From NCBI GenBank assembly GCA_949358305.1, contig OX442324.1, positions 7,599,601 to 7,663,600 on the forward strand: a stretch of DNA of 64,000 bases, given 5' to 3'. Each line of letters begins with the position of its first letter. Within the stretch, counting starts at the first letter, position 1. This document shows positions 34,034-62,200 of the stretch, piece by piece. Below the pieces are notes generated by a model, which was not told the DNA's origin, searched no databases, and saw nothing but the letters and a program-made list of their open reading frames with translations. Position numbers and translations under genes: made by a program. Source of the DNA: Strigamia acuminata (Eukaryota > Arthropoda > Chilopoda > Geophilomorpha > Linotaeniidae).

Positions 34034-34569
34034 TGTTGGTCTAAAGACCAAATATTATCGATGAATATATTTTATTTCTTCTTGATTTCCCATTACGTTT
34101 AGATATTCGGTGCATATCAGTTATTACTTGATTGTTTTCAGTTATTGCGTTTAATTTAACGCTGTCACATATGTAATTCCATATGATGTTCATATTCCCA
34201 GATGATTTGTTCTTTTATATAATGATTTGTCTTGTATTCATGTCAATAATCGGCACCAGGTGCCGCTTGACATCTCCTTCCCAATCCAACATGGCGCAAC
34301 ACACGGGCGTGTGTAGCTCACCTGCTTTTCAACTGTTTTAGGACATTAATTCGTAATGTATTATGTTTTTATTAAAGTGTATATTTAGTTTAAACCTCGT
34401 TCATTATTGGCAAGCACATTCAGTGCTTTTAGGCGAATATAAGCGGTATTTTCCGCGCGCCTCGTACGTATCGAATCGATACGTTTTGCAGACGTTCGTG
34501 CGTGAAGCACGACACCATACGCACGCTTCCCACCGGTTAAATACCGGTTTCGCGCACTCCTCTGCTACA
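34034..34569 (+). repeat. 5' LTR of Copia A
   Basis: 536 bp. It carries several hairpins: ACACACGGGCGTGTGT, CGTATCG/CGATACG (34467-34483) and ACCGGT/ACCGGT (34532-34548). The last 11 bases (CCTCTGCTACA) copy the 3' end of initiator tRNA. Confidence 0.95.
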
Positions 34570-35320: not shown

Positions 35321-36435
35321 CCCAATTCTGGTCTTTCCGCCTCGAACAGCAAGTGCTAGTGAAGTGCGACGATCTTGTGCTCCGATTTAGTGCCATTAAG
35401 CAGTGCCACTCTCTGAGCTTTTGTGTTCTTCGCGTCGTGTTTTGTCTAGTGATTTACGATGCAGAAAGCGGCCAATTCAAACACTTTGATTCCAATTCTC
35501 GGCGTCGGCAATTACGAGGACTGGCGAATGGCAATGCAGTTCTTGTTAAAATCCGAGGGGCTCTGGAGACACGTGACAGAGGACAAGGAGGCGGACCACA
35601 TTGCAACCCTGACGCCCAAGGAACTCGACCGTTACATGATAAAAAAGGACAAAGCACTAGGGCACATTTACATCCACGTGAGCCCCAGCAAGCGCACAGT
35701 TCTTGAGACTTGCAACACGCCAAAGGAGGCGTGGGAGATGCTCGCTAAGATCTACGCGCCAAGTTCCAGGGCCCGTCAAGCGGCCATGCGCTGGGACTTC
35801 TTAAATCTGCAGCTTCAACCCAACGAAGACATGCCGGATTTTATTGCCCGCGTGGACAATTACGTGCGACAATTAAGGGATGTAAATGAAATCATTAGCC
35901 CAATTCATCACGCGTATCAATACTTGAAGTGCTTGCCGCCTGAATACGCGCAGGCTACCTTCGCGATCTATCATTGGCCAGACCCAAAGTTTACGCCGAA
36001 GGATGTTGCCGAGCAACTGATATCCGAACACATGCGTCTTAAATCAACTGGGCTGCTCGGATCATCTCAATCGTCAGCTCATGCTTCTAAAGGACAGTTT
36101 CGACCGCGTAATAAATCTGGTCCACGTGATTTATCGACCGTGAAATGCTTTAATTGTGATCAATTTGGACATTATGCAAACAGATGTCCACGTCCACCTC
36201 GACAAAATCAGAATCAACCCACGGTCACGCTGCAACGTAATTCTCGCAGCAAGAGTCGCAGGCGTAACAAGAATGCTGCCGCAAAGGTCAACAATTTGCG
36301 ACCCCGTGAAAATTCTCTTCCACATCGAGAGGGGACATTCTTTGTCAACGCGCCGCAGGTTGTTCAGCGTCCAGTAGCCCATTTCATGCAATCCAACGAA
36401 TGGATACTGGATTGCGGCGCCACAGACCACGTTTC

Positions 36436-36904
36436 TGTTGTTTATCGATGCCAAACAGTCCTCCGTACTTGTTTTGCGCATTTCTTAATGTATTACTGCA
36501 TTATGCAGCCTAGTGTATTTATTAGGATTTATTTCATTATTTAACATTGGGCATAATGCTGCCTGCATCATGTTAGTATTAGTTTACTTTTTCCAACACC
36601 AGATGGTGTCACTTGTATGTTTTTCTCAATCACAATGGCCGCTTGCATGCCAGCAAGCACTCATGCATTTTCTCCATCTAAATGGACCAAATTATGTAAG
36701 CATTTTCGTTTTTATTAAACATTTAGTTTATTTTACATTGTGTTTGTCACTTATGAGCACTTTAGAGTGCAGTGACTTTATTTTCCACCATTTTCAAGCG
36801 CTGGAGGTGCGCGCACGTCATTGCGCTCATATTAGCCGTGTTTCGGCATTTAAACTCGCTTCCACACACAGTATTTTATACTGTGAGCGCACTCCTCTGC
36901 TACA
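36436..36904 (+). repeat. 5' LTR of Copia B
   Basis: 469 bp with hairpins ACACCAGATGGTGT, GCTTGC/GCAAGC, TCCAT/ATGGA and CACAGTAT/ATACTGTG (36867-36885), and a GTAAGC donor-like word at 36696. It ends CCTCTGCTACA. Confidence 0.95.
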
Positions 36905-36906
36905 GG

Positions 36907-37491: not shown

Positions 37492-37598
37492 CCTAGCCAG
37501 TGCTTACCGCGGCCAACAGGTACTCCCGCGCCTCCAGGTAGGCGAACGGACCCCTGTGTGTTGGCTGGCTAGGGTTATCTGACCACTTCAGAAGTGGT
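37492..37598 (+). ncRNA. Structured leader RNA of Copia B
   Basis: Outer helix CCTAGCCAG (37492-37500) with CTGGCTAGG (37565-37573); CCAAC (37513-37517) with GTTGG (37560-37564); ACAGG with CCTGT (alternative or stacked); inner CGCCT/AGGCG (37529-37544) closing a CCAGGT loop; following hairpin ACCACT/AGTGGT (37582-37598). Same architecture and loop as A and C with largely different stems. Confidence 0.7.
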
Positions 37599-37759
37599 TG
37601 CCCAATTCGATTGATATCCGCTTTGACAGTGCTTCGATCAGTGCGCCGTATTTGTGTTGTGCAACGCGATATTGTGCTACGAGATCGTCAAGTGCTCCAA
37701 TTGTACCATTCTCCATCCAGTGTATTTTGCTACGGATAGTTTCGTAACTTCACGTCATA

Positions 37760-40700
37760 ATGTCCAAGTCCGTCGAAGGAAATTCCGGACGCCTTCCCAT
37801 TCTCAGCGTAGGAAACTACGAACTATGGCAGCGCTCAATGCGCATGGTGCTGAGAAGTGAAGAGTTATGGGAACACGTAACTGAAGAAGAAGAGGCAGAT
37901 TTCCTTAAAACCGCGGGTGACAAGGAAAAGAAGAAATACAAACGTCGTAAAGCCAAGGCATTAGGCTTAATATACTGTTCAGTAAGCGAGGCGAAGAAGT
38001 CTGCGCTAGATGATTGTAAAACCCCGAAGGAAGCATGGGACATTTTAGCCAACATTTATGCGCCATCATCTCGTGCGCGGCAGGCAGCCATGCGCCGTGA
38101 ATTTTTGAATTTGCGCCTAGAGCAGGGCGAAGATATGGCCGACTTCTTAGGACGCGTTGACTATCATGTCCGCCAAATGAAGGATATCGGAGAGATAACT
38201 ACGCCTGATCATCACGCTTACCAATACTTGGACTTATTACCTCGTGAATATTCACAAATTTCATTCACAACATATCACTTGCCCAAAGGTGAATTCACAC
38301 CAAAGAAAGTGTCCGAACAGTTGCTCGCGGAACATATGCGACTCAAGGCTATGGATTCGCGCGACACGGACAATTCAAAACATTCTCGTGCCTATGCTGG
38401 TGAAAAACAGCAACGTGGGAGAAATCGTTCTCGTCCCTCTCGACCGTTATCTTCGGTGCAGTGTTTTAATTGCCAGGAATTTGGCCATTACGCAAATAAA
38501 TGTCCTTTGCCATCGCGCCGAGATGACAAGAATCAACCGGCAGCTTCACTTCAAAGGAAGCCGAGGAGTTCTAGCCGCAAACGCAACAAGAACTCAAACC
38601 GTGATGATTCGAGGCCAAGGGGGAATTCCAGCGCAAGACGAGAAACAAACTTTTTCGCAAGTGCTCCGCAACAGTTACCCACAATTCACTTCATGCAATC
38701 ACATGAATGGATCGTGGATTGTGGGGCAACAGATCATGTGTGCCACGTTCAAGCTTGGTTTCAGGATTTTGTCAAAGTTGTGCCCTTTAATATCGCTTTA
38801 GGCCAGGGACATTCCGAAGTTCTAGGAAAGGGCAAAGTCCAGATTATCTCCATGATCAACAACGTAGAATGTGTCGTAAATCTCCAAGATGTGTTGTATG
38901 CGCCAAAATTCGAGGCGAATTTGATTTCAGTGTCAAAAATGGATAAAACTAAACATCACATCCATATTTGGAATGGAGACGTTTATGTCTACAAATCCGA
39001 CATTAAGCATCCAATGCTTCGGGCCAAAGAAAAGGGCGGCCTTTACTATGTTGACGGCTTGTGCCCACCTTCAACGTTGATATCAACAGTGGATGTGCCT
39101 ATTGCGCAGTCGACCGCTCCGACCCGAACATTAGTCACGACAGAAGAGGATTTCATCCAGTATCCAAGGGCAAAGAAAAAGTCGAAAGATCCTGAACTTT
39201 TTACTGATTTTCGGCTCGAATTCCCTCCTTTGCCAAATGAAATTCCTCCACCTGCACCAATCAAAGTAACCCAGTCCAAGACACCTCCTGTACCTGTTCC
39301 TACCAATCCTTTACCTCAAGTCCCATCCTTTGCCGACACATTAAAGGCAATTCCTACAACTTCCAAACCGAATCCAAAATCGGCGAATCAAAAGAAAGTT
39401 GCAGCGCCTACGGTTAAAAAGGATGCGACAGGGATATGGCACAGCAGATTGGGTCACCTTCATACCAATGCGATGAAGCTTTTGGCCGGAAATAACCAAG
39501 TTTATGGTGTGACACCGGCAGAAGTGAACAAAGAACTCTCATGTAATCATTGTCGAATTGCGAAATCAACGCGCATTTCTCATAAACCTGATGAACATCC
39601 TATTTCTACAAAGGCTTTAGATCTCCTACACATGGACGTGTGGGGAGCATCAAGAACGACTTCCTACGGAGGCGCGCGTTACGTGCTAACGATTATTGAC
39701 GACGCCACGCGCTATGCCTGGATATTTCCGATGGCCCAAAAATCCCAAGTATTTGGATTGTTCAAAGACTACGTCACACGAATCGAACGAGTGACGGGCA
39801 AACGAGTGAAGGCCATCCGAACTGACCGAGGAGGAGAATTCTTGTCAAATGAATTCGAACGATATCTAAAGGAAACCGGGATTCAAGCCCAACGGACCAA
39901 TCCACATAGCCCCGCTATGAATGGCACAGCGGAGAGAATAAACCGCACAATGGCAGATTACACGCGTGCCATCCTAGATGAAACTGGACTTCCGAATGAA
40001 CTTTGGGCGGAATTCGCAGTGACTTTCTCGTATATAAAGAACCGGTGCCCTCATTCTCGTCTCAAAAATGAGGTGCCCTATATCCTGTGGCGACGACGTG
40101 CCCTTTCGCTCCGACACCTCCGCAAGTTAGGCTCCAAGTGCTGGGTTCATCATACAGCGCCCGGCAGGGACAAATTGGATCCACGAGCTTGGGAGGGCTA
40201 TTTAGTCGGATACGCCACGACAACGCGAGGTTATCGCATCTGGAACCCAAAAGACAATAAAGTCATCGAATCCATTCACGTCCAAATTGACGAAAGACAA
40301 TCGTACAAACGCTCTAACCATTATCGAGGTCCGCAAGAGCCATGGATGGGACCAGATATGGATCAAATGCGCCAAACATCACAAACTTATCAACCATTGC
40401 GAGTTTCTCAACCGCATGTGAGGTTTGACGACGGACTGGAATATACTGATTGGCCCAAATTTCCAGATTCAGAGGATGAATGTGATACAGACTATGACTC
40501 TGACGATTCGACCCCAGCGGGTGCTCAATACCGGACTCCGCCAGCCACTCCAACTCCGGGATCTCCTATTCGAGCCCCTCTAATTACTCCAGTAATAACG
40601 CCGGTGCTGAGTCCAGTTATTACTCCCGGCAATACACCAAGTCATACACCACCTGGTTCACCTCCGAGTTTTGTAAATGCTCGTCGAGGCTCTCGTGGAA

Positions 40701-42565
40701 ATGCGCCACAAGCTCATCAAGCAGCCCACCATGGTCCACCTCCAACTGGAGCTGCAACTGCATATAAATGGCGTTACATTGGTGGAAATACTGAGTGTAG
40801 ACACTGGAAAAGGGAGGAACATTTGCGCAAAGTACAGGAACCTGGAAAACTCAAAGTCGATGTTTATTATTTCCCAGAAGCAGGACTCCGATTACGTTCT
40901 AGAGGTGACGTTGAGGAATTCTGTCACATGAACAATATTCCTTATGATCCCGAATTATTTTATTTTGGCAACATGGAATATGAATTAGAGAATCTTCCGC
41001 CACCACTTCCCAGAGTGCACCTTTGTCGTCGTGATCCCACAAGTTACGCAGAGGCTGTAAGATTTCCGGATGCAACCAAATGGCAGGAAGCCATTAATGA
41101 AGAGTTAGACACTTTTGCAGAAAGAGGCGTCTATGAAGAGGTCCCTAAACCGGAAAATACAACCATATTAGGGTGCAAGTGGCTCTTCAAACTGAAGGAA
41201 GATGCTCTAGGAAAACCAGCCAGATATCGCGCAAGATTAGTGGCACAGGGCTTTCGCCAAACTTTAGGTGTAGACTACGATGAAGTCTTTAGCCCTGTTG
41301 TCAACTTTGTTCTCATACGCCTATTCTTCTGCCTATTAGTAGTCCTCAAAGGGTGGAAGGATGCGCATTTAGATGTGAAGTGCGCGTACCTATACGGCGA
41401 TCTTGCGCACAAAGTGTATATGCGCATTCCAGCTGGCGCAACATGTTCAAATCCAAATCATGTATGGCTCCTGATAAAGTCGCTCTATGGTCTCCACCAG
41501 TCCGGGCGCCAATGGTTTGAGAAATTAGATCAAACATTGCGCGATTTAGGATTTCGCAGATTACCAGGATGCAATTGTGTATACATATACGGAACTTCCG
41601 CCGTGATGCTAATATACGTCGATGATATAGTACTATTTTACGCGACGGATGGCATCCTGACGCAATTAATTGCTCTTATTAGCACCAAATTCGACATCGT
41701 CAATTTAGGCCCAATTTCAAAACTTTTAGGTGTATAATTCATCCGTACTCCCAAAGGAATCTTCATCATCCAACGTGCATACATACAGAAGATTCTCAAG
41801 AAATTTGCAATTGTCGCCGATAAACTCATCAAGGTCCCAGTAACACCAGGAACGACGCTCGTCAAAGGGTCGAAAGAGGACTTGCCAGAATTTCCTTATC
41901 GTTCGTTAATTGGCTCTCTTCTCTTCCTCGCATCGAGGACACGACCTGATATATTATTCTCAGTGATAATGTTGTCACAGTTCAACAATTGCTACAACCA
42001 CACTCACATCAAGGCGCTCATGCAGGTTGTGCGCTATGTAGGCAATACTTTGGATTACGCAATTGAACTGTCAAATTGTTCCAATGGACAACTATGGGGA
42101 TATACTGACGCGTCCTGGGCCACCGAAATCAGCACTTCTTTGAGTTTCGGCGGGTATATAGCTTATATTGGAAACGTCCCCATCGGATGGAGTTGTCGTA
42201 AACAAACCAGCGTGGCATGCTCAACGATGGAGGCGGAATTTGTCGCACTCGTTGAGTGCGTCCGTGAACTTTATTGGCTGGATTACGTCTACAGTTCCGT
42301 CCCGATGCTGAATAGATCTTCACCACCTTTAGTGTTCTCCGATGCGCTTTCTTCCATCCAATTCACATCAAATGACGTGGAGAACAGTAAAACGAAACAT
42401 ATCCGAGTGAAATTTCATTGGATTCGGGAATGGTACACAGCAGGTGCATTCCAATTGCGCAAAGTCCCCGGATCAATGAACGTGGCAGACATTTTTACCA
42501 AATGGTTGGGATCATCTCAACTGCGTCTCCTGATTTCCCGGATTTTCAATTTCAACCTATCGTGA
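37760..42565 (+). pseudogene. gag-pol: Gag-Pol of Copia B, one nonsense codon
   Basis: A single frame of 1601 codons from the ATG at 37760 to TGA at 42565, broken only by TAA at 41735-41737 where relatives have Glu (LLGVEF). Domains: Gag capsid (about residues 10-200), CCHC knuckle CFNCQEFGHYANKC, protease WIVDCGATDH (serine of the usual DSGA replaced by cysteine), GAG-preintegrase WHSRLGHLH, integrase with D, D, E in HMDVWG, RTDRGGEF and GTAERINR, a proline-rich linker, an MBD-like segment (40768-40974), reverse transcriptase with YVDDIVLF, RNase H (TDASWAT, STMEAEF) and the C-terminal KTKHIRVKFHW block. The stop removes the end of reverse transcriptase and all RNase H unless read through. 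Confidence 0.93.
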
Positions 42566-42773
42566 CATTCTTATTTTAGTTTTACCCGAATGTGAGGATC
42601 ATCGAGTTCCAGTGGGAATTTTCGGGCTTCCGTAGTGATTAATTTAACAGTACCCGGCTCGATGTTCCGAATTATTATTTCCATTATTATTATTCTATGT
42701 AAAGTTACATTTAAAGTTTTTCCCTTAACTTATTCTTTATTTTTTGCGGCTATTTGCCATCGAAGGGGGAAAT

Positions 42774-43242
42774 TGTTGTTTATCGATGCCAAACAGTCCT
42801 CCGTACTTGTTTTGCGCATTTCTTAATGTATTACTGCATTATGCAGCCTAGTGTATTTATTAGGATTTATTTCATTATTTAACATTGGGCATAATGCTGC
42901 CTGCATCATGTTAGTATTAGTTTACTTTTTCCAACACCAGATGGTGTCACTTGTATGTTTTTCTCAATCACAATGGCCGCTTGCATGCCAGCAAGCACTC
43001 ATGCATTTTCTCCATCTAAATGGACCAAATTATGTAAGCATTTTCGTTTTTATTAAACATTTAGTTTATTTTACATTGTGTTTGTCACTTATGAGCACTT
43101 TAGAGTGCAGTGACTTTATTTTCCACCATTTTCAAGCGCTGGAGGTGCGCGCACGTCATTGCGCTCATATTAGCCGTGTTTCGGCATTTAAACTCGCTTC
43201 CACACACAGTATTTTATACTGTGAGCGCACTCCTCTGCTACA
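42774..43242 (+). repeat. 3' LTR of Copia B
   Basis: No differences seen against the 5' LTR. Preceded by purine tract CGAAGGGGGAAAT, followed by the GTTTC duplication. Confidence 0.95.
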
Positions 43243-43970
43243 GTTTCTCACGTGCGAGCTGGTTTCACCGAGTTCACCGATGTAATTCCCAAGTAACGGG
43301 CAAAGGAACGGTTCGACTTCTTCTAGCGATTGACAAGACGCAATGCACCGTTAATTTGACCAATGTCCTATATGCGCCGAATTTCGAGGCGAACCTGATC
43401 TCCGTGTCCAAGATCGATAAAGCTCGTCACCATATCCATGTTTTCAACAGTGAAATTCATGTCTACCAATCGGACATTCGTAGCCCTCTCATCCGCGCAA
43501 AGGAGAGAGGTGGTCTTTATTATGTAGACGGTTTGTGTTCGACTCCGACGTTTGCGACGACGATTTCCGCAACGACTCAGCATTCTGTGCCTCCTACACA
43601 GACATATGTTACCACTGAGCAGGATTTTCCGAACATTCCAAAGCTGAAACCAGGAAAAGGAGCCAAGCAAAGAGAGATTACGGATTTTCGGATTGAGATG
43701 CCAGCTATTGGACCTGTAAAACAAATTTCCATACAACAAGCTCCTCAAACCAATCCGATTCCTCCTCCTATTCCCACGCAAATCCATAATAACCTGACCA
43801 CTCTTCCCTCCTATGCGGGTGCCTTGCAGTCAATCCCAACGGCAAACCCAACCGCGATTCAGAACGCAAATTCCTTTCCTCCCCTCGGCAATCCGTCACA
43901 TAAGAAGCAGACACCAATTGCCAACCCTACATCCGTCAAGGACGCAACTGGATTGTGGCATAGCCGTCTT

Positions 43971-44558
43971 TGTTGGACTTTAGAACCACTTTTGAGTTAT
44001 TTAAATCATTTTTCGATGTGAAATGGCTTTGAAACGTTTATTTTATCATTTATCGGTAATTGTTTCCATTTTCCTGGGTTATTCAGTGTTTATTTAGTGT
44101 TTTCATGCTTGTTTGTCAGGAGAATGCATGATACCGGGTTAAATGTACTCAATACATTAGGTTTCATGCATCCTCTATCTTGTTCTTATGCTTTTCATTA
44201 TTATTGTTTATAATATCGGCCACCAGATGTCTCTGGCACATTACAAATGGCCGCTCACACGGGTAGTGTGTTTCCTTGTGTTTGTCCAGTGATTCTGGAC
44301 CCATTATGTAAGTTTTCTCTTAATAAATGTTATATTTTTGGTTAACTATTGTATTTAGTTCGGCACTACACGTTTCTATAAGTGTAGTGCACGCGAATTT
44401 GATCGTAAGTCCGCTCAAACTCGCGTACGCGCATCACGCGCATTTGTCCGCACTTAGAAGTGCGTTTGACTCATTTGTCCGCACTTAGAAGTGCGTTTGA
44501 CTCAGTTTTACGCTTCCTATCGCCTATTTCGGCGATATTTTTGCGCCACACAGCTACA
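43971..44558 (+). repeat. 5' LTR of Copia C
   Basis: 588 bp. Hairpins include CACAC/GTGTG, GTCCAG/CTGGAC, GCACTACAC/GTGTAGTGC (44363-44390) and CGCACTT/AAGTGCG, the last inside a 31-bp tandem duplication (44441-44471, 44472-44502). A GTAAGT donor-like site is at 44308-44313. Confidence 0.95.
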
Positions 44559-44560
44559 AG

Positions 44561-44572
44561 TGGTAGCAGAGG
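44561..44572 (+). other. Primer-binding site of Copia C (tRNA-iMet)
   Basis: TGGTAGCAGAGG, two bases after the LTR. The match to the tRNA is shorter than in A and B because the next bases (CCTGG) diverge. Confidence 0.75.
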
Positions 44573-44601
44573 CCTGGAAAGCCACCAGTGCCTCGTTTTT
44601 C

Positions 44602-44856
44602 CATTAATTTTCCGTGAATTTCGCGATTTTTCGCGATTTTTGCGGAAATTTTTTTTTTTTTTCAGATTTTCGACGATTTCTGGCAGTCAACAACCCCGGA
44701 GTGCGGTCGTAATCGTCGATTTTTGAATTTTTTCAACCTTTTTTCGTGTTTTTCGAGTTAAAAACACTGTTTTTTTGTGTTTTTCGACTTAAAAACACTG
44801 CTTTTTGTGCATTTATTGTGCAAGATAGCGACAATTGACCTAGGAAAAGTCTTGTT

Positions 44857-44902
<46 letters not shown>

Positions 44903-45010
44903 CCCTCTAATTTTTCGTGAATTTCGCGATTTTTCGCGATTTTTGCGGAAATTTCATTTATTTTCAGATTTTTTCGCCGATTTTCATCATTTGTCACGTT
45001 CCGACAACGT
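44602..45010 (+). repeat. Duplicated leader segment and 44-T run in Copia C
   Basis: A CGTGAATTTCGCGATTTTTCGCG block with a following TTTTCAG occurs at about 44609-44670 and again at about 44913-44970. Between them a run of 44 T lies at about 44859-44902. Each copy ends in an acceptor-like TTTCAG. Confidence 0.8.
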
Positions 45011-45309
45011 CTGAGCGACGTTTTCATCCAGAAACGGGCATAACCCGCTGTCTGCACCCCGGAGTGCGACAGTATCGGCGATTTTCGAGAAGTTTTTCCC
45101 GGTTTTCGAAATCGGTCGGCGATCTTTTGAAGAATTCCGCATTTTTTATGCGTGGTGTGCACAGGGACGTCTGTGCATACAGATTCACCAACTTCTCCTT
45201 CTTTTTATTTCAGATTTCGAATTTATTTGTTAATTTTAAGTTTTTGGAGTGGGTCCCGATTAGTATCGGCACAGCCCTTCGGACATTCCGTCCAAGCTGT
45301 GCTTGTATT

Positions 45310-45420
45310 CTTAGACAAGGCTGAGCCCTGCGCCACCTAACATTCCCGCGGCCCCAGGTGGTCATAAAGGACGTTAGGGGGACACTTGTCTAAGGTTCTT
45401 AGCCAATTTTAGCATTGGCT
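45310..45420 (+). ncRNA. Structured leader RNA of Copia C
   Basis: Aligns with A at a constant offset without gaps. Outer CTTAGACAAG (45310-45319) with CTTGTCTAAG (45385-45394); middle CCTAAC with GTTAGG; inner GGCC/GGTC with loop CCAGGT; next hairpin AGCCAAT/ATTGGCT (45401-45420). At least five pairs differ from A on both sides while keeping pairing. Confidence 0.78.
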
Positions 45421-45556
45421 CCCTGTCGAGGTTTTTCCGCTTCTAACAACGTTTAGTGAAGTGCTTCGAGTGAAAAGTGCTCCGATTACGTCTTTAGTGC
45501 CTCGAGTGTTTATGCGTGCTCATTATCGCCATTATCTCCGATTTTCCTCCGGAAAA

Positions 45557-48500
45557 ATGCAGACAGCAAGAGCCAACTTGAATTGGAATCGGTACACGAA
45601 GGAAACATCGGCTTTTGCTATGGACAATCGTGGATGCAATCAATCCCGACCTCCTCGTCCGATTTCGAAGGTTCGCTGTTTTAATTGCGGCTTTTTCGGC
45701 CATTACGAGAATAAGTGCCCCCGCCCTCGCAAACAGGGCAAGGAACCGCAACCGGTCGCGTCTCAACAAGGCCGACCCCGCAGTAAGAGCAAACGACGGT
45801 AGAATAACAGTTCGCAGCAATCCGGTGGTCAAAACCGTGATGTTTCTCGTCCCCGAAGGGACGCCGCTTACCTGTTGTCGGCTCCACCGGTGATCGAAGC
45901 TCCGGTTGTACATTTTCTCCAGTCCCACGAATGGATTGTCGATTGTGGGGCCACCGACCACGTTTCGCACGTCAAAGCGTGGTTTACGAACTTTGTTTCC
46001 GTTGTCCCATTCAACATCGAGTTAGGCCAGGGCAGTTCGAGGGTCACAGGCAAAGGTGACGTTCCGGTCAAGTCGCTCATCGATGGCTGCGAATGCACCG
46101 TATTGCTCCGCGACGTCTTATTCGCACCTGACTTCGGCGCAAATCTTATCTCGGTTTCTCGGATTGATAAATGCGGACATCACATCCACATTCACAACTC
46201 GGAATTGCATACGTATGAAACGGACATCAAACTAAGTGTTCTTCGGGCGAAACAGAAGTCTGGACTTTATTTCGTGGATGGGCTCATCTCGCCATTCGCC
46301 GCTCCGACTAATGTTTCGAGTTCGTCTGTTTCATCATCACTTCCGACTCCGACACCGACCACTCTAGTGACGAAGGAAGAGGACTTTCCCGCATTGCCCA
46401 AGTCTTCCAACAAGACTAAGAAGAAGTCGGCTGACAATATGACCGATTTCCGCTTGCCCGTCTTCTCCAACACCTTGCTTGTCCCTTCACTTTTCCCTAC
46501 CAGTCCTGCTCCTATTCCCGGATCCCAACCTCAACAGATCCGGATGTATTCCAATGCCCTCACATCTCCTCCCGTTGCCAAGTCAAACGCAGCATTACCT
46601 CCCAAACCAGTTAATCCTTCGGTTGCCAACGTCGCAGACGCCACGGGATTGTGGCACGGCAGGCTGGGTCACCTGCATACGAAGGCCATGCGGACTTTAG
46701 CGGCTAACTCCCAGGTTTATGGGCTTGATCCAGCTGCTGTTCGCCAGGAACTTTCCTGCAACACGTGCCGTGTTGCCAAGTCCACGCGTGCTCCACATAA
46801 GCCAATTTCCGCGCCTTCAACCACGAAACCGCTTGAATTGCTTCACATGGACGTCTGGGGCCCGTCGAGACTGCCTTCCATCAGCGGTGCTAATTTTGCC
46901 TTCACCATTATCGATGACGCCACCAGGTACGCCTGGCTTTTCCCGATCGCCCGTAAATCTGATGTTTTTGCTACGTTTAAAGACTTTGTTTCTCGCGTTG
47001 AACGTATTGCTGATTGCCGAATTAAAACAATTCGCACCGACCGTGGAGGAGAATTCATTTCGAGGGATTTTGACCGTTTTCTTGCTGACAAGGGTATTGT
47101 TGCTCAACGGACCAATCCCGCATCGCCACAGATGAACGGTGTCGCCGAACGCCTGAACCGGACAATGGGCGACTATCTCCGCTCCATCAACTCCGAAACC
47201 GGATTTTCGCACACGCTTTGGGCTGAACTTGCCGTGACGTTCACATATATCAAAAACCGCAGTCCGCATTCGAAGCTCAACGACGAAATCCCATACATTT
47301 TGTGGCGCCAGCGTGCTCTTTCCGTCAGACATTTTCGTAAGATTGGTTCCAAGTGCTGGGTACACTTCACCGCACCTGGACGCAACAAACTGGATCCTCG
47401 AGCGTGGGAAGGATTTCTCGTTGGCTACGCTTCGGGAACTCGAGGGTATCGAGTGTGGAATCCGGCTACGAACACCGTCACCGAATCTGTTCACGTCCAA
47501 ATCGATGAACGGCAGAACTTTAAGCGCTCGCCCTTTTATGTTCCAGATCCGGATGACAATGCTCCACCCATGGAGGAGCCTGCTCGTGGCCACACCCCGT
47601 CACGTGTCACTTTTCGTGATAACTTTCCAACTCAGCCTTGGCCTCGTCGACGTCACGATTCGGATAACGACTCTTCTGCTGACAGCAGTGACGAGGATGG
47701 TATTGCCAGTCGTGCTTCCTCCGTCGCTTCGAGTGCTCCGTCTTTCGCTTCATTCGCACCATCTCTTCCTGCAGCTGATGGTCTCATCGCCGCTGCTGAC
47801 GGCTTAGCTGCTACGACTGATGGCTCTGTTACCGACGCTGATGGCTCTGTTACCGTCGCTGATGGCTCCGATAATGTTACGACCATTGCAGGACATGGAC
47901 AATTTACACCGACCGTACGTTCCACCCGCTTGCCTCATCTACGGCGTTCGATGTCCTACCCATCTCTCCCGGGTCTTGACGACACCGCAGCGATGTCTGA
48001 ACAGGGTTCAGATTTTGACGAAGACCTTCTCGACGAAGCGGCTGCCTTGCCTGTCCGACTTCCGGGTACGCCTAATTTGGCGCCTTTACGCGCTCTTCAT
48101 TGCCCTTGGAGTTTTGTTGGCGGCGTTTCGCCCTTCAGCGGATGGAGGAGAGAAGAGCATCTCCGGAAAGATCAGGTTCCGGGGAGGATTAAAGTCGACG
48201 TTTATTATTATCCGGAGCACGGTGTCCGCTTGCGGTCGCACACAGATATCGCCGCTTATTGTTTCGCACACCGGATACCGTATGATGAGTCCGTTTTCTT
48301 CTTCGGCAATTTAGAACACCACATGCCATATGCTCCGCCATCGCCTCCTCGTGTCCACATGTGTTTTCGGGAACCGGCCACATACGCCGAAGCTGTGAAA
48401 TTGCCCGAAGCACCGAAATGGACCGAAGCAATCGACGAGGAACTTTCGACTTTCAAGCAACGAGACGTTTATAAGGAGGTTCCGAGACCCCCTGACAAGA

Positions 48501-49897
48501 CTGTGCTCGGTTGCAAATGGATTTTTAAGTTCAAAAGTGACATTACCGGAAAGATTACCCGATATCGTGCTCGACTGGTCGCCCAAGGATTTCGGCAGAC
48601 AATGGGCGTTGACTACGATGAAGTTTTTAGTCCCGTAGTCAATTTTGTCCTAATCCGTTTCTTCTTTTGTCTGCTGGTTATTCTCCTCGGATGGAGGGAC
48701 ACGCACCTCGACGTGAAATGTGCCTACCTCTACGGCGACCTTGACCACGAGATTTATATGCGGATTCCCGCTGGTGCCACATGTTCCTCGCCCGACAACG
48801 TATGGTTGTTGACCAAGTCGCTTTACGGTCTTCACCAGTCGGGGCGCATGTGGTACCAGAAACTTAATGAAACATTGACAGAACTTGGATTTCAAAAGTT
48901 TCCAGCATGTAATTGTGTGTACGCCTACGGACATTCGGCCATTATGCTGGTATACGTCGACGATATTGTTTTATTTTATGCTTCGGAAAACATCAGGGAT
49001 CGAATACTCAAGCTGATCACGAGTAAATTCGACATCGTCGACCTGGGGCCAATCACCAAACTGCTGGGAGTCGAGTTCGAGCGTCGTGACGGGAAAGTCT
49101 TTATGACTCAACGCAATTACATTGACAAACTCCTCAAAAAGTTTAATGTTTCATCTGACGCGCTCATCAAGGTGCCAGTCACACCTGGGACCACGTTAGT
49201 CAAGGGACCGCTCACCGACCTTCCGGATTTTCCGTATCGATCACTCGTCGGATCTTTATTGTTCCTGGCTTCACGTACTCGCCCCGACATTTTGTACTCG
49301 GTGATCGCATTATCGCAGTACAACAACTGCTACACTGAGAGCCATATCAAGTGTTTGCTGCAGGTCCTTCGTTACGTCGCGAACACGAGCGAGTACGCCA
49401 TCGAACTTTCGAAATGCGATTCGAGTCAACTGTGGGGTTGCACAGACGCCTCTTGGGCCTCCGACATCGCTACATCGAGATCATTCGGCGGATACATTGT
49501 TTACATCGGAAGTGTGCCCATTGGCTGGAACTGCAAGAAGCAGACCAGCGTCGCTTGCTCCACAATGGAAGCCGAATTTGTCGCACTTGTCGAAATCGTC
49601 AAAGAACTCTATTGGCTCGACAGTATTTATCAAGTGTTTCCACCTTTACGTCGATTATCGAAACCGATCATATTTTCCGATGCCCTCGCCTCGATTCAGT
49701 TCACGAACAACGACATCGAGAACTCGAAAACGAAACATATTCGAGTGAAGTTTCACTGGCTTCGTGAGTGGCACATTGCCGGATGTTTCGAACTCCGCAA
49801 AATTCCGGGTGAGATAAATGTATCCGACATTTTCACCAAGTGGCTCAGTTCAGAGCGTCTTCGAAATTTATTATCTCGGATTTTCGTCTCGAAGTAA
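45557..49897 (+). pseudogene. gag-pol: Gag-Pol of Copia C, capsid region deleted and one nonsense codon
   Basis: A frame of 1447 codons from the ATG at 45557 to TAA at 49895-49897. After a start resembling A (MQTARAN), nearly 200 residues of Gag capsid are missing and the frame goes straight to the knuckle CFNCGFFGHYENKC. A TAG at 45800-45802 separates this short Gag from the rest. Downstream everything is open: protease DCGATDH, GAG-preintegrase, integrase (HMDVWGP, RTDRGGEF, GVAERLNR), a linker with ADG-type repeats, an MBD-like segment (48107-48312), reverse transcriptase (YVDDIVLF), RNase H (TDASWAS, STMEAEF). The enzymes look intact but no capsid protein can be made. Confidence 0.92.
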
Positions 49898-49945
49898 CTT
49901 TTTTTCGATTGTTTAGCACCGACATTTTACATCGAAGGAGGGAAT

Positions 49946-50533
49946 TGTTGGACTTTAGAACCACTTTTGAGTTATTTAAATCATTTTTCGATGTGAAATG
50001 GCTTTGAAACGTTTATTTTATCATTTATCGGTAATTGTTTCCATTTTCCTGGGTTATTCAGTGTTTATTTAGTGTTTTCATGCTTGTTTGTCAGGAGAAT
50101 GCATGATACCGGGTTAAATGTACTCAATACATTAGGTTTCATGCATCCTCTATCTTGTTCTTATGCTTTTCATTATTATTGTTTATAATATCGGCCACCA
50201 GATGTCTCTGGCACATTACAAATGGCCGCTCACACGGGTAGTGTGTTTCCTTGTGTTTGTCCAGTGATTCTGGACCCATTATGTAAGTTTTCTCTTAATA
50301 AATGTTATATTTTTGGTTAACTATTGTATTTAGTTCGGCACTACACGTTTCTATAAGTGTAGTGCACGCGAATTTGATCGTAAGTCCGCTCAAACTCGCG
50401 TACGCGCATCACGCGCATTTGTCCGCACTTAGAAGTGCGTTTGACTCATTTGTCCGCACTTAGAAGTGCGTTTGACTCAGTTTTACGCTTCCTATCGCCT
50501 ATTTCGGCGATATTTTTGCGCCACACAGCTACA
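49946..50533 (+). repeat. 3' LTR of Copia C
   Basis: No differences seen against 43971-44558, including the 31-bp tandem duplication. Confidence 0.95.
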
Positions 50534-53500
50534 GTCTTGGCCACCTTCACACGAATGGAATGAAGTTATTGGCCGCAAATGATCAAGTGTACGGCATGCA
50601 ACCGGGGGAAGTAAGCAGGGAGTTGGCCTGCAACGACTGCAGCGTAGCCAAATCGACAAGAGCTTCTCATAAGCCTGATCCAAATCCCTCGACTACAAAG
50701 CCTTTGGACCTTCTCCACATGGATATTTGGGGGCCAGCCCCAATCCCATCGTTTGGAGGAGCACGTTTCGTCCTCACAGTCATCGACGACGCAACGCGCT
50801 ATTGCTGGATCATACCGCTAGCGCAAAAATCACAGGTTTTCGCAACCTTTAAGGACTTTGTCGCCCGAGTGGAAAGAATTCAAGACTCCCGAATAAAAGC
50901 GATTCGGACGGATCGAGGCGGAGAGTTTATGTCCAACGAATTCCTCCGTTTCCTTCAAGATAAGGGCATTCAAGGGCAGCGAACGAACCCGTCGTCGCCA
51001 CAGATGAATGGCACGGCCGAGCGCATAAACAGGACAATGCTCGACAACGTCCGCGCAATTATTTCCGAGACGAAACTTCCGGATGCGCTTTGGGCCGAGC
51101 TCGCGGTTACGTTCGCCTACATCAAGAACCGGTGCCCTCATTCTCGACTTAACAATCAGGTCCCGTACATCCTTTGGCGACAGAGAGCCCTATCGTTACG
51201 ACACCTCCGCAAAGTCGGCTCAAAGTGCTGGGTGCACTACACTGCGCCAGGCCGGAAGAAGCTGGATCCGCGGGCCTGGGAGGGGTATTTAGTCGGCTAC
51301 GCCACAGGGACCCGTGGATTCAGAATTTGGAACCCAACTGACAACAAAGTCTACGAGTCGATTCATGTCAAGGTCGATGAGCGCCAATCCTACCGGAAAT
51401 TGATTAAAATTTCGTCTCAACGACCTCAAGAATCGTTTACCAGCCCTGGACAACAATCGGTTTCGTTTGATGATAATCTCCAATACCATCAATGGCCGAG
51501 GGGATCCGATTCAGAGGCGTCGGAGCACTCTGCGAATGATTCCGAACGTGTGTCAACAGCATCTGCATCGATGCACACACCTCTTGCGTTCCCGCATATC
51601 CACATTCCACCTCCGACGACTCCAGAACGGGTCTTGCTGGATTTATGTGCGACATTGCCTCCGGGTTCCGCATCCCTTCGACAATCTCATCACATTTCAT
51701 ACGAAGAGGAACGCGATACTGACCACGACATCCGAGAAATGGATGAATTATCGGTTTATCCCGAGACATCCGTACTCATTGACCCGTCAGCGGAACCATC
51801 GTCGCATCAATTACCTCCGTCGACACCACCCTCGCCTCAACGTTCGACAGCGCCTCCTCTCCCACGTGAGACGCCGATACCGACACCGAGATTTATCACA
51901 ACTCGTCGTCAACAACGTGCTGGTGATCCGGCTACACATACCATGCAAATTTTTGACCCCGATCCTATGTCACCAGCGCCGGTATTGGGAACCGAAGTCG
52001 CTGCGGCAACCGCTCGCCACACGACTCATATGTGGCGATTCGTCGGTGGAGATGGGGAGTGCCGAGAATGGATACGTGAGGAACACCTCCGTAAGGACCA
52101 AAAACCCGGATCAATTGCCATCGACGTTTGTTATTTCCCAACTCCGAAGATCCGTCTAAGATCTTATAACGACATCGAGGAGTATTGTTTGTTGAACAAC
52201 ATCGATTACGACCCCGGACTCTTTTTCTTTGGCAACCTCGAGCACAAGTTACCAGTTCTTCTGGGCGTTCGTCATGCGGCTCATCTGTGCCGAACCGAAC
52301 CGGCTTCATTCGCCGAAATACCGAAATTCACTGATGCTCCGAAATGGCGTGAAGCAATTGGGGAGGAGCTCGATATGTTCAAAGAGCGAGAGATCTATGA
52401 AGAAGTTCCCCGACCACCCGACACCACTATTCTTGGCTGCAAGTGGATTTTTAAACTCAAAACCGATGCAGCCGGAACCGTCACTCGATACCGAGCACGC
52501 TTAGTAGCGCAAGGTTTTTATCAAACCCTCGGAGTCGATTTTGATGAGGTGTTTAGCCCAGTCGTGAACTTCATATTGATTCGTCTGTTTTTCTGTCTTC
52601 TCGTCGTATTACGTGGTTGGAAGGACGCCCACCTCGACGTGAAAGGTGCGTACCTATACGGGGAATTAAAGCACAAAGTCTACAGGCGAATCCCCGCGGG
52701 TGCCACATGCTCCGATCCAAACAACGTGTGGCTGCTCCTCAAGTCACTTTACGGCCTCCACCAATCGGGAAGACAATGGTTCGAGAAACTCGACGAAACA
52801 TTACGGGCCCTCGGATTTCGAAGAATGCCGGCATGCAACTGTGTATACGTTTTTGGAGACACAGCTGTTATGCTGGTTTACGTGGATGATATTGTTATAT
52901 TTTACGCATCCGACAATGTTTTCACTCAACTGATTCGACTAATCAGCTCGAAATTCGACATCGTGAACCTCGGCCCGATCACCAAACTCCTAGGCGTCGA
53001 ATTCATCCGTGACGCCGGGCGCACGTTCATAACCCAACGTGCATACATCGCCAAAATGGTTAAGAAGTTCGGGACATCAACGAATAACCTAGTCAAGGTG
53101 CCAGTGACCCCAGGAACGACACTCGTCAGAGGGTCCACCGAAAATCTTGAAGATTTTCCCTATCGATCATTAATCGGGTCACTACTGTTTTTGGCATCGA
53201 GAACTCGTCCCGACATCTTATACTCCGTCATAGCATTAGCACAGTTCAACACATGCTACAACCGAACCCACATCCGCGCCTTGTTACAGGTTCTGCAGTA
53301 CGTAACGAATACTGCAGATCTTTGCATTGAATTATCTGGTTGCTCTTCAAGTCAACTGTTGGCATTCACCGACGCGTCGTGGGCAAGCGACCCGGAAACA
53401 TCATTGAGTTTCGGAGAATATATCGTATACGTTGGAAATGTCCCTATCGGCTGGTCCTGTCGTAAACAGTCGACCGTAGCGTGCTCAACCATGGAAGCCG

Positions 53501-54040
53501 AATTCATCGCCCTGGTTGAGTGCGTAAAGGAGCTTTTCTGGCTCGACAACGTGTACGCCGAATTCCCGACTCTCAATCGTTTATCTCGACCCATCGTGTA
53601 TTCCGACGCCCTGGCCTCTATCCAGTTCACGTCTAATGACATCGAGAACGCGAAAACAAAACACATTCGCGTTAAGTATCATTGGCTCAGGGAGTAGTTC
53701 ACGACAGGAGTCTTCGATCTTCGAAAAGTTGCCAGCGAGGTCAACATCGCAGACATTTTCACCAAATGGTTATCGTCAGAACGTTTGCGATCGCTGACTT
53801 CGAAGATCTTCCGAGTATAAACTTCACCGTGACATTCTTGATTTGTTTTCACCCGACTTCGAGGATCATCGAGTATTAGAGGGAATTTTCGGGCTTCCTT
53901 AGAGAAGAGTTCTTCAATAATAGTACCCGACTCGGTGATTCGAAACTTTATTGTTTTTCAATTTTCAAATGATTATATGCTGTAATTCCAGTACCCGTTT
54001 GTTTCATCCCCTGACAAATATTTCCATCGAAGAGGGGATT

Positions 54041-54576
54041 TGTTGGTCTAAAGACCAAATATTATCGATGAATATATTTTATTTCTTCTTGATTTCCCAT
54101 TACGTTTAGATATTCGGTGCATATCAGTTATTACTTGATTGTTTTCAGTTATTGCGTTTAATTTAACGCTGTCACATATGTAATTCCATATGATGTTCAT
54201 ATTCCCAGATGATTTGTTCTTTTATATAATGATTTGTCTTGTATTCATGTCAATAATCGGCACCAGGTGCCGCTTGACATCTCCTTCCCAATCCAACATG
54301 GCGCAACACACGGGCGTGTGTAGCTCACCTGCTTTTCAACTGTTTTAGGACATTAATTCGTAATGTATTATGTTTTTATTAAAGTGTATATTTAGTTTAA
54401 ACCTCGTTCATTATTGGCAAGCACATTCAGTGCTTTTAGGCGAATATAAGCGGTATTTTCCGCGCGCCTCGTACGTATCGAATCGATACGTTTTGCAGAC
54501 GTTCGTGCGTGAAGCACGACACCATACGCACGCTTCCCACCGGTTAAATACCGGTTTCGCGCACTCCTCTGCTACA
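54041..54576 (+). repeat. 3' LTR of Copia A
   Basis: No differences seen against 34034-34569. Preceded by CGAAGAGGGGATT and followed by GATTG, where the E third ORF resumes. Confidence 0.95.
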
Positions 54577-57339
54577 GATTGGTGCCACGCTTTCATCCTG
54601 ACCACCCGAATGATCAAAGTTTCCCAAACTATGAACTGTGTCCAGTTTGTAGCGGGACAGGATTTGAAATTTACCAACTGCGGGCGCCACGAGAATGCCG
54701 AGCGTGTCGGGGCGGCGGTGACTTGCGCCGTTGCAAATTTCGGAAATGGATGCGCCTTATGTTCGCTTATGTACTAGGCTATGAATCAATAGATAAGACT
54801 TCGTTGGCTGGAGTGGATTTTCCGCCGCCGAGGATTCCATTCGGCAGTGCAAACGCCATCGCTCGTTTTCGACATGCGCACGCATCATACTTGGCACGCA
54901 TAAAGCAATTGGCGAAGGAGAAGGGAATCCGGCCGTTGACTTGGAAATACCCGGAGGGAGCATACATAATTGCCGGCGAGCAGCCTGCCGAACTTCCGGA
55001 CCAGTTTGTGACGCCTGAAGGAAAGACCTACGACGTAGAATCGGGTATAGAACTATGTTTGACGGCGCCTAATGTAATCGCAGATGCGAAAAGAGCGTAT
55101 TCGGAGCCGGAGAGAGTTGCGGCCGACTTGCCGTTTCAACATTCAAATTTGCGTCCGCGACATACGTACGAGGAGCGAAGCACGCATCGTTTAAAGGAGT
55201 ATACGCAGAAAGTAACGAAAAGGATTGGAGCGGAGGCAAACCGGGACACTCACTTCGTGACGGGACGATCCAGACCAACATTGAACGCGTCTTCGATTAT
55301 AGTCGAAGAAAATGGAGCGGTTGGAGGAGCGCCTGCCGCCTTGCCCGTCGTTAAACCAACAGAAGAACTTTCGTTGGGCGATCAAGTGATTAAAAAGGTA
55401 AAGAAGAATGAAGAAAATAGAAGAGAGAGAGAAAAAATTAGCAACATCAACACGATATCGACCCCGATTATCAAAACGGAATCAAGCGTGACGGCGGCGG
55501 AGGCAAAGTCGATCAACGTTTCAACGGTGACCACTTTGGGCGCTGCTGCGCCGATTGTCATTCCTTATTTTTATGTCGTGAAAAACAATTCGTCTTCGAT
55601 TGAGACGTCTGAGTCGAGCCAGGCTGCCCGGTCTGTCGATGCCACCACTGTGACCCAATCGAATGTGACGCCCAAGATGATGACTTCAGTTGCTGCGACA
55701 TCGGTGCCGATTACGTACTCCAAAATTGCAACTTCAAACACACAAATGGACACAATTGCTGATTTTAACACAAAACTAATTAAAGCTGATTTTTCCCCAC
55801 AGGTTGACCGAGATATCAAAGCGTTGTTGAATTTTGCGCCATCTTCATCCATCGCGAATATCGCTGCCGAAATTGCGAAAGATGCAGGAGAGTGCGCAAG
55901 GATCCACGACAGCAAGAAATTGGAAAACAAGGTTTCGAATCCAATTGCTAAGGCCATTTCGGCGGTCTCGAGCGGATCAACGTCGTCGGAAGGATGCGCA
56001 TCTCTAAAGCCACGATATCTCCAGGGATTCGACCGAAATGGATGTACAATGCGCCCGGATCGTATTTTCACTCAGATGTCTGAAATATTCCGGCCCCATG
56101 AGCTTGAGATACTGTACCCCATGGAGAACAGGGGCCAAGGACGAATCAATTTGAGATCTGAGGGATGGAGCGAACTTTTCAAGATGTCGATTAATTTGGA
56201 CTTCAATGTTAGCGCCTCGGACTTCAAGGCGGTCATCGGAACAATTTTCGGACGTCTCGGAAACATAGCCAAGGAAATAGAAGCAAAGATGACGAAAGAC
56301 TGTACCGGAGACGAACACGCGGTGCAGCACCTCATTGTGCACGCCGTGCACTTTAATTTGAAGGAGATCATCACCCAAATGCATCAGAGTCGTCGCGACG
56401 CCGTCAAACGATTTCGAGAGGCCGACGCGCTGAAGGAGGCCCAGCGACTGGAGGACGAGAGAAATGCGCCCGCCAAACCACCGCTGGATCCAGAATTGAT
56501 CATGACGGAGGATGAAATTAAGAACTTTTCAGAAAAGATCCTCATCGAGTTGGCGCCTGAAAAATTGGTGCAACAGTTTAAAGACGCAATTGCCGAAAAT
56601 CCAAGATTGGCGGATCCCCGAACCAAATATTCGTTCGTCCGTAATCGTGGCAGACACTGGAAAGCTCGCCTCGGAGTTATCGTCGGATGTGGATTATTCA
56701 ATGTCGGATGTCGAGTCGCTTCGCGAGTCAACGGGCGACGAGGAGAACCACAAAGCATTCCTGGCGGCGCGAGAACACAACAAAATTGAGGTAATTCAGG
56801 CCGACGAGCCCTTCAGACTTCCTGGAGTTGGACGGGGCGGTGCAAAAGCTGGACGTCGATCGCCATTGATGTCGAGGATGCCTAAAATGATTTTGACACC
56901 ACCGAAGGAAAAAGACGACGATCCAGGCGAGGTTGTTACACGTGAGAGTTTGCGCGAACCAGTCAAGCCACGGCCCAAAGAAAAGCGTTTGGAGGAGCCA
57001 ACTTGCGCCCTTGCGATCATGGAGGAAATTGTTCCAGTGGACGAAATATTCTTTTCATTGCCGTGGGAGCCTAAAATCGAATTGGTCGTGGATTGGAGTA
57101 TTCTGACGCGCCTTTTCGAAACGATCATCTTTTCAGACTTACAACTTGACCACAGCGCGGGCGAAAAATTGTTGTCCCTTATTAAACAATATTATGTTGG
57201 ACATTTCCTTTACCGAGTAAACAGAATTGGCCAGAAGTGTTACGCAACTTCTAAGCAACAGGTGAGAGTGATCCTCGTAAAAACAGCGCTTAGACTGGTC
57301 TATTATGCGATGGACGGTCAAGGCGCGTCTGCATTTTAA

Positions 57340-59211: not shown

Positions 59212-62200
59212 CAACGTCTAGCTCAACAAAAGAGGGACTCGGGCCAGGGGTCAATCGTTGACGCCTTCAGCACAGGACAGGGTTCCGCCAACACGAAAAA
59301 CAGTGATAATTCAAAACCTCAACAACAAGGGAACTTTAGCCAGAACAGCCGTGGATTTCAAGCCGGACAAAAAGGCGGCAAATCAAATTATCGAGGTGGT
59401 AAAAACACGAGAGGAAGTTTCAGAGGGAATCCAACCGGATCAACGGGACGGGGGCCGTGTTTTCGCTGCAATCAACATGGACATTGGGCAAAGGATTGCA
59501 CGGCTCAACTACAATTAGTGTCGAATACCAACATGAAGACGAATACGGTCGAAGAACTTGACGCAGACATGTTGGATGTTGGATTTCTCACCGAATTGAG
59601 CAAACAAGAAATGTTGCAGTGCAGTGGAGCCAACAATTGCTGGATTTATGACACGGGAGCCACTGGACACTTTTGTAAAGACAGAGCTCAATTCCACAAT
59701 TTCAAGGAAACAACTGGAACAATAAGCCAAGCAGACAAGAAAACACTAATACAGATCCAAGGAGTTGGAGATGTCTGCATTATGTCTCTGGTTGGGAATG
59801 AAACGATTCCCATAACACTGAAAAAGGTCTATTATGCACCGGATCTGCGAAGGAACTTATTGTCGGGGCCGTGCATTGACGAAGCAAGATGCAGAGTCGC
59901 AATTGGTTCGGGTTTAGTCAAAATCTACGACCCACAATGGAAACGGCAGTTGATGCAAGGAGTCAAAAAGGACAGACTCTATTACATTCAAATAAGTGAC
60001 GAGAAACCCGACATTGAGAAACTGAAAGAAAAGGAAAGGAATAAGGTCAATACTAGTGAGGGAAAGACACAACAAGCTACTGGATCAAGCAAAACAGCTT
60101 CGAATCCAGAAGAAGCACGACTTTGGCACGAGCGACTTGGACATATCCATTTCCCTAGCGTGCAACAAATGAGTAAGACAGAAGCGGTAATTGGACTGCC
60201 CGTGCTCGACGTGCCAATCACACAGTGTGATGTGTGCACACTTGCAAACAAGAAATCAGTGTCGCACAAGTCAATACCGGGAATTAGGTCGAGGGGACCG
60301 CTAGAACTTTTGCACATGGATGTGTGCGGGGCGTTTGGAACTCCCACACTATCTGGAAACCGGTATTTCTTTACCATCACAGATGACTATTCACGATACT
60401 CGACAGTATATCTGATGAAACAAAAGGACGAAGTATTCGACTTGTTTAAGAAGCATGTGAAACGAATTGAGCGCCTGCTCGGAAAATCGATTTTGGCAAT
60501 ACGAACGGACAATGGGATGGAGTTCTGTTCCAACAAATTTGGCCAGTACCTTGAGGAACAAGGAATTGCACATGAGAGAACAAATGCCCAGAACGGAGTT
60601 TCTGAAAGACTAAACCAAACATTAGCCAATGGGATGCGAGCGCTTGTGTACGATGCACAACTGGAACATCGATTTTGGGGAGAGGCCATCCTAACGTTCA
60701 ACTACTTGAGAAATAGAATTGCCAAGCTGAATTCCGAGAAGACGCCAATGGAACTTTATTATGGACGGAAACCATCATTGCGTCATTTAAGAAAGTTTGG
60801 AAGTCTCTGCTTTGTGCAGAAGAAAGTACGAGACGGAAAGATAGACAATAAGGGCATACATGGAATTATGCTCGGGTATTCGAGGATTACCAAAGGATAT
60901 CGGATTTAGCTGCCAGAATTTTCGAAAGTCATTGAAACAAGCGACGTTAAATTCGTGGAGAGCAGGCGCGGTGTTGAAGGCGTGCTGGGCCTACCGGAGA
61001 AGTACACCACGTACATCGACAGTTTGAATGACAACTTGGAGAACGACGACCGTCAATATTACTCCGACGAGGACAATAGGCCACCGCTACCCCCGCCACA
61101 GCCTATTATGAAAAGAGGAGATCCAGAACCGGAACTGCCTCCAATTAAGTTGAAATTTCAACAGCCTGAAGAAAAACTACAACATAATTTACCAGCAGTC
61201 AATCTTCAAAAGGCTTTACCACAACTTGGACAAGTACTTCCAAAACACAATTGCAACGATACCCGCACTCGTTTGGAAGAAGACGGAGAAGACAAGGGCA
61301 ACAGGTCAGAAGGATTATGAATACACCATTGAAGGGTATGACAAGCCAAAGTTGCGATCAATACCAGACGTCAAGCGATATTGCGCGGATCATAATCTTC
61401 CCGTCCCAGAGCACCTCTTCGAAGACAAGAGAAGAAAGAAGCCCTCTGAGTCCAATGTGACTACTGATGATTTCGATTCGTACTTGGATGAATTAACACT
61501 CGATGTCGAAGCGAATCATCTCGAAGTGTTTATACTCGCACGTTTTGAGCAGATAGCTGGCCTACCAGAGAAAGAAGAGTGGAACCACGCTATGTGCGAT
61601 GAAATTGACACAATGCACGAACGCGAGGTATGGGAATTAGTTCCACCGCCACCCGACATAAAACCAATAGGATGCAAGTGGATTTATACCATCAAGCAAA
61701 ACGACAAAGGGGAAATCGCGAGATATAAGGCAAGACTTGTTGCGCAGGGTTTTTCACAAGTCTACGGCGAATCCTATGAGGAAACCTTTTCGCCAGTGGT
61801 GGATTTCTCCATTGTCCGCTTCATGTTTACGCTCTTGGTCTGCATGTTGAAGTGGACCTATATCCAAGCAGATGTAAAGTGTGCCTATCTCTACGCAAAG
61901 CTGCACAAGACCATATACATGCGTCAACCGAAAGGTTTTATTTGCAAGGGTAAAGAAAACTACGTTTGCAGACTCATTCGCGCAATATATGGACTGCACC
62001 AGTCAGGCAGAAAATGGGGCATTGAATTAGAAGACACCCTATTGAAACTTGGACTCCAACACGTAAACTGGTGTAACTGTGTTTACAAGTTTGGAAACGT
62101 CGCTTATCTCATCGTATACGTCGACGATATTGTTGTTTTTGGGAAAAGACACGAAGACGCGACACACGTACTCAACTTGATTAAGACACAGTTCGACATT

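Follow-up and report, generated by a model that had tools for sequence, protein, structure and literature searches.

Three nested Copia retrotransposons of the centipede Strigamia acuminata, here called A, B and C, carry a module of about 70 residues between the integrase/SH3 region and the reverse transcriptase (RT) which, judged from profiles and predicted fold, is a true methyl-CpG-binding domain (MBD), closest to MBD2 among solved structures and expected to bind methyl-CpG. The elements lie in the window analysed in this study, a stretch of 64,000 nucleotides (assembly GCA_949358305.1, contig OX442324.1, positions 7,599,601 to 7,663,600 of the forward strand). The domain is conserved and constant in its place, it occurs in elements that have been active recently, and its carriers are enriched in CpG-dense DNA relative to Copia elements without it. 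We put the probability at about 0.7 that this is a true MBD in the Pol of a large Copia lineage (CopiaMBD) which steers integration to methylated, CpG-dense DNA. The modules in the window are as follows.

48107..48316, + strand: MBD module of element C, the main finding (PF01429, profile, predicted fold)
40769..40978, + strand: MBD module of element B (PF01429, 27.4 bits for an excerpt, 22.9 bits for the whole frame)
52033..52242, + strand: MBD module of element A (PF01429, 13.4 bits; Cys at the MeCP2 Y123 position)

The assignment to PF01429, for which Pfam sets a curated cut-off of 21 bits, holds for the whole frames of B and C (22.9 and 23.0 bits), where the match is placed between SH3/rve and RVT_2; in the whole frame of A, the Pfam scan did not report this domain even at an E of 10. 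Excerpts of 104 residues scored 27.8 bits for C, 27.4 for B and 13.4 for A, so that A alone stays below the cut-off. Despite this score, the A module is 61% identical to that of B and 57% to that of C. Pairwise, the three modules share 38 to 43 of 70 residues (54-61%), against 12 to 14 when shuffled. The linker that precedes the module (154-213 residues) is only 22-23% identical among the three (50/213, 48/213 and 42/195), little above the shuffled level (means of 38, 42 and 36), while the integrase-SH3 part is 69-77% and the RT, cut short in B, 61-71% identical. In two close pairs from other families, the ratio of nonsynonymous to synonymous substitution rates (dN/dS) of the module is 0.07 and 0.10 over 60 codons. 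A search of the genome (237,517,015 bases in 157 contigs; 237,534,282 bp in 158 scaffolds according to the Strigamia acuminata genome note, PMC10556566) returned 1092 candidates for PF01429, and all 150 that were scored exceeded the cut-off. The C module has at least 35 copies that are 100% identical, the window's own included (35 of 150 scored, out of 1249 candidates), which points to recent spread. One copy with an internal stop (L002) was left out of the module alignments.

A profile built from eleven modules found MBD2 as its best match among solved structures (E 2.5e-14), with BAZ2A at an E of only 0.095. The predicted fold has the sheet and helix of an MBD, and ranks 1 to 36 of its structural matches (VIA-align on Foldseek's ranking) are all MBD or TAM structures, those of MBD3 and TAM domains among them. 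At the equivalents of the MeCP2 contacts R111, D121 and R133, A, B and C have Arg, Asp and Arg, and the three residues are invariant across ten divergent module rows. The module shares the fold, the Trp and the three contact residues with the domains of MBD2/MBD3 and MeCP2. It differs from them in being housed inside a retrotransposon polyprotein and in a contact loop of variable length, one residue longer in A, B and C than in the other rows. A set of 5.8 billion proteins searched with the MBD region gave no match at E 0.001 among 98 candidates. The preliminary description, made from the letters of the window, had recognized the MBD layout of PF01429 type in all three elements and the Arg/Asp/Arg contacts; both readings hold, A falling below the Pfam cut-off on its own. 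Its translation of the C module at 48107-48312 (+) is as quoted there. The corresponding modules of B and A do exist in frame, from 40769 and 52033, but the range 40768-40974 given for B lies one base off the frame and would contain six stops.

How such a domain could choose sites can be pictured in three steps. The MBD would stay joined to integrase (or to RT) within the integration complex; it would dock the complex on methylated, CpG-dense DNA; and integration would thereby be biased to CpG-rich repeats, other LTR (long terminal repeat) elements included. The methylation of the targets, the binding of methyl-CpG and the physical tethering of integrase are inferred. In the window itself, two CopiaMBD elements (B and C) are inserted within a third (A). 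We compared the 600-base 3' flanks of 60 MBD-bearing Copia copies, 40 MBD-less Copia copies, 20 copies of a fourth Copia family (D, described below) and 20 random sites from six chromosomes, one of which (L090) consisted entirely of N and was excluded. The copies, chosen from the top-scoring genome matches and mostly with long open frames, fall into five MBD-bearing and four MBD-less groups defined by frame length and score; absence of the MBD in the latter was judged by eye from five copies of the four groups that read across the slot. The median number of CpG per 100 bp was 6.33 for MBD-bearing Copia (n=60), 2.75 for MBD-less Copia (n=40), 4.5 for random sites (n=19) and 6.0 for D (n=20). 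Flanks of MBD-bearing copies were denser in CpG than those of MBD-less copies (p=3.3e-7) and than random sites (p=0.0024), and the medians of all five MBD-bearing groups lie above those of all four MBD-less groups; MBD-less copies against random sites gave p=0.13. The difference persists without group M_1658 (n=48; p=7.1e-6 against MBD-less copies, 0.0098 against random sites), a group that is often located in tandem repeats; of its 12 flanks, 5 match group mates at the same offset and 6 consist mostly of tandem repeat. Copia or Gypsy coding sequence was found in 11/60 flanks of MBD-bearing copies, 0/40 of MBD-less copies, 6/20 of D and 1/20 of random sites, an excess of MBD-bearing over MBD-less copies with p=0.0028. 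The preliminary description suggested that the domain would be a targeting device, an idea with which these flanks are compatible.

Several results weigh against this reading. GC content also differs between the flanks of MBD-bearing and MBD-less copies (0.448 vs 0.353), and the ratio of observed to expected CpG (o/e) differs less (1.24 vs 0.98, p=0.0019), so that the flank signal is in part base composition. The excess of coding sequence from transposable elements is not significant against random sites (11/60 vs 1/20, p=0.28). The copies are top-scoring matches with one flank each, and they are survivors of selection rather than new insertions. The Gypsy control failed, as the shared offset at which 18 of its 20 flanks match one another places these inside the element; as a comparison between kinds of element, the finding of CpG-denser sites holds against MBD-less Copia only. 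The invariance of the contact residues is partly selected for, L001 to L008 having been chosen as top PF01429 matches, and the Y123 contact is not shared by element A, which has Cys there. The DNA of the window is not depleted of CpG (o/e 0.98-2.09 per 4-kb chunk), unlike the usual state of long-methylated germline DNA. Finally, the flanks of D, whose contact loop is shortened, are as CpG-dense as those of MBD-bearing Copia (6.0, n=20, p=0.52).

We observed separately that the flanks of 7/60 MBD-bearing copies (L065, L107, L111, L114 and L116 of group M_1658, L046 of M_C and L119 of M_1696) contain a tandem repeat whose 53-bp unit holds 11 CpG. It lies in both orientations, its offset varies, and it is present in 0/40 MBD-less, 0/20 D and 0/20 random flanks (Fisher p=0.04, MBD-bearing vs MBD-less). 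A 337-bp stretch of this repeat has at least 40 identical full-length copies, all on contig C1 among the best 40 of 708 candidates, and the repeat may therefore itself belong to a mobile element.

The alternative of a host without methylation machinery can be rejected. The genome has 11 matches to PF00145 (all 11 candidates scored) at five loci, four of them DNMT1-like by the motif GPPCQGF and one DNMT2-like by SPPCQPF; no DNMT3 was seen among the five loci. An SRA domain, the kind found in UHRF1, is present with two matches. Published reports give a DNA methylation level of 33.18% for S. maritima (PMC8857917) and all three DNMTs in one species from each of three myriapod orders (PMC8821070). 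The genome note lists chromosome X at 9.63 Mb and Y at 10.34 Mb, the counterparts of the contig of the window (C12, 9,630,499 bp) and of C13 (10,344,242 bp), respectively. The DNMT loci (L019-L023) are also not depleted of CpG (o/e 1.26-1.47), although four DNMT1-like loci are present in the host.

The alternative that survives best, which we consider improbable, is that the MBD has become a general binder of DNA or of chromatin proteins, no longer a reader of methylation, and that CpG-dense sites are GC-rich or repeat chromatin reached in another way. MBD3 and the BAZ2 TAM domains are regarded as binders of this sort, and both MBD3 and TAM domains appear among the fold matches; the Cys at the Y123 position of A and the undepleted CpG of the window speak in the same direction. 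The invariance of Arg, Asp and Arg in the ten divergent rows, the constraint on the module, and a profile search in which MBD2 stands far ahead of BAZ2A (2.5e-14 vs 0.095) count against it. Family D, which keeps CpG-dense sites with a shortened contact loop, is also in its favour; the copy of D in the window spans 59518-62755 and carries the following module.

61244..61465, + strand: diverged MBD-like module of the fourth Copia family, D (hhalign; frames 59518-60909 and 61226-62755)

In a single comparison by hhalign, the D module matched the ten MBD rows with a probability of 96.2 and an E of 2.6e-9. It has no MBD match in Pfam, a profile of D alone found no MBD in the PDB (its sole match was ribosomal L35 at E 0.1), and its contact loop is about four residues shorter than in the MBD profile. 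The D module is constrained as well (dN/dS 0.13-0.30 in three pairs). In an unrooted integrase tree of 17 rows, from which 3 of the 20 extracted rows were left out for being under 110 residues (L004, L007 and L026), a single clade (97/95) unites the nine MBD-bearing rows, with D placed across that split among the MBD-less rows. The data are compatible either with a single capture before the split between D and the MBD-bearing lineage, with later divergence in D, or with a separate origin. D flanks are denser in CpG than those of MBD-less Copia (p=3.3e-4) and than random sites (p=0.021). That a family with a shortened loop sits in equally CpG-dense DNA suggests that the preference may not depend on the canonical contacts, and this is the strongest result against canonical methyl-CpG contacts alone determining the target.

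A more speculative reading, which we hold only tentatively and think rather doubtful, is that in this genome the slot between integrase and RT takes an exchangeable DNA-reading cassette that decides where each Copia lineage inserts: the MBD would lead to CpG-dense repeats, an AT-hook-like stretch in some MBD-less families to AT-rich DNA, and the D module to CpG-dense DNA by another mode of recognition. In the five copies read from the four MBD-less groups, the slot holds, as judged by eye, only low-complexity linker. Within it, AT-hook-like stretches were noticed by eye in two of the four MBD-less groups (L042, L043 and L208), reading RGPGRPKL..KPGRPSK in the group of 1388 aa and KPKRGRPTK in that of 1307 aa. 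Their restriction to two groups counts against an exchangeable cassette, since the other two groups have equally AT-rich flanks; the GC medians are 0.378 and 0.328 for groups with such stretches and 0.366 and 0.348 for those without. A literature search for AT-hooks in Copia found no useful precedent.

It is less likely still, though not negligible, that the MBD serves the element's own balance of expression and silencing, for example by covering methylated element DNA or recruiting host repressors, and has no part in the choice of sites. The MBD adjoins RT in the polyprotein and so need not be attached to integrase, as this explanation would have it, but the sites differ between MBD-bearing and MBD-less Copia of one genome, which it would leave unaccounted for. 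Chance resemblance or a generic Copia linker domain, to which only the 13.4 bits of A lend anything, can be rejected given the MBD2 profile match, the fold ranks and the low-complexity linker seen by eye in the slots of the five MBD-less copies.

Steering by a methylation-reading MBD remains our preferred reading, and elements of this kind have been described before. De Mendoza, Pflueger and Lister published in 2019 (Genome Res 29:1277, PMC6673714) the capture of an MBD by an arthropod retrotransposon family. The elements are said to be Copia of Strigamia maritima and a spider, the MBD to bind CpG-dense methylated DNA, and the young copies to lie in CpG-dense regions, denser than those of other LTR elements. 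The statement in the preliminary description that no described case was known has therefore to be withdrawn, and S. acuminata is a confirmed further example of MBD-bearing Copia elements. Likened by description only, the two cases agree in having an MBD inside the Copia polyprotein of an arthropod; they differ in the species, in the several divergent families found here, and in the presence of D with its diverged module. The chromodomain of Ty3/Gypsy chromoviruses, which stands at the C-terminal end of integrase and is considered to steer integration, likewise equips an LTR element with a chromatin reader, although in another superfamily, as another domain and in another place; when scanned with Pfam up to E 10, the open frames of elements A, B and C showed no chromodomain. 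Copia and DIRS retrotransposons with a DNMT3 gene, mentioned in PMC12344493 with reference to de Mendoza 2018, carry a writer, whereas CopiaMBD carries a reader. The published arrangement of a transposon with a methylation-reader domain is an unusual one, and S. acuminata adds many young copies of several families, the comparison with MBD-less Copia within one genome, and a family with a diverged MBD. Together, the MBD-bearing, MBD-less and diverged-MBD Copia of this genome form a natural experiment that asks what sets the sites, the reader or another factor, and the public chromosome-level assembly with PacBio HiFi reads (ERR10906091) makes targeting directly testable.

The remaining features of the three elements are listed below.

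34034..34569, + strand: 5' LTR of Copia element A, TG..CA, 536 bp (equal to 54041-54576, 536/536), preceded by the target-site duplication (TSD) GATTG
35459..36544, + strand: gag of A, Retrotran_gag_2 and zinc knuckle (Pfam); the frame continues into the LTR of the inserted B
36436..36904, + strand: 5' LTR of element B, 469 bp, inside A (equal to 42774-43242; TSD GTTTC)
37760..41737, + strand: gag-pol frame of B, gag_2, zf-CCHC, Pol_BBD, rve, SH3, MBD, RVT_2 (open reading frame list, Pfam)
42774..43242, + strand: 3' LTR of B (identity to 5' LTR, TSD)
43110..44021, + strand: open frame from the B 3' LTR through part of A pol to the C 5' LTR (open reading frame list)
43971..44558, + strand: 5' LTR of element C, 588 bp, inside A (equal to 49946-50533; TSD GTCTT)
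45875..49897, + strand: pol frame of C, Pol_BBD, gag_pre-integrs, rve, SH3, MBD, RVT_2 (open reading frame list, Pfam)
49946..50533, + strand: 3' LTR of C (identity to 5' LTR, TSD)
50560..53697, + strand: remaining pol of A, rve, SH3, MBD (below the cut-off alone), RVT_2 (open reading frame list, Pfam)
54041..54576, + strand: 3' LTR of A, then GATTG (identity to 5' LTR, TSD)

Element A (34034-54576) received B (36436-43242) and C (43971-50533). The identity of the LTR pairs (536, 469 and 588 bp) and the perfect 5-bp TSDs (GATTG, GTTTC and GTCTT) indicate that all three are young. Integrase before RT, an RT of RVT_2 type, gag_2 with a zinc knuckle, TG..CA LTRs and the 5-bp TSD place them in Ty1/Copia, and the Pfam domains gag_2, zinc knuckle, Pol_BBD, rve, SH3_retrovirus and RVT_2 follow one another as is typical of Copia. 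The frame of B stops inside RT and is followed by a second frame at 41882-42565, and the middle of the frame at 43110..44021 resembles, by eye, Pol_BBD and the linker of B and C. Beside D, fragments of further D-like Copia copies lie in opposite orientations at 62644-63246 (-) and 63093-63578 (+), as judged by eye. Long open frames at 15130-16635 and 54579-56789 have no Pfam match above cut-off, and these two and the frame at 56512-57339 are possibly related (by eye). Positions 1-15000 hold extended arrays of a repeat rich in CpG, which appear as repetitive open frames, and the first four 4-kb chunks of the window have a CpG o/e of 1.66-2.09.
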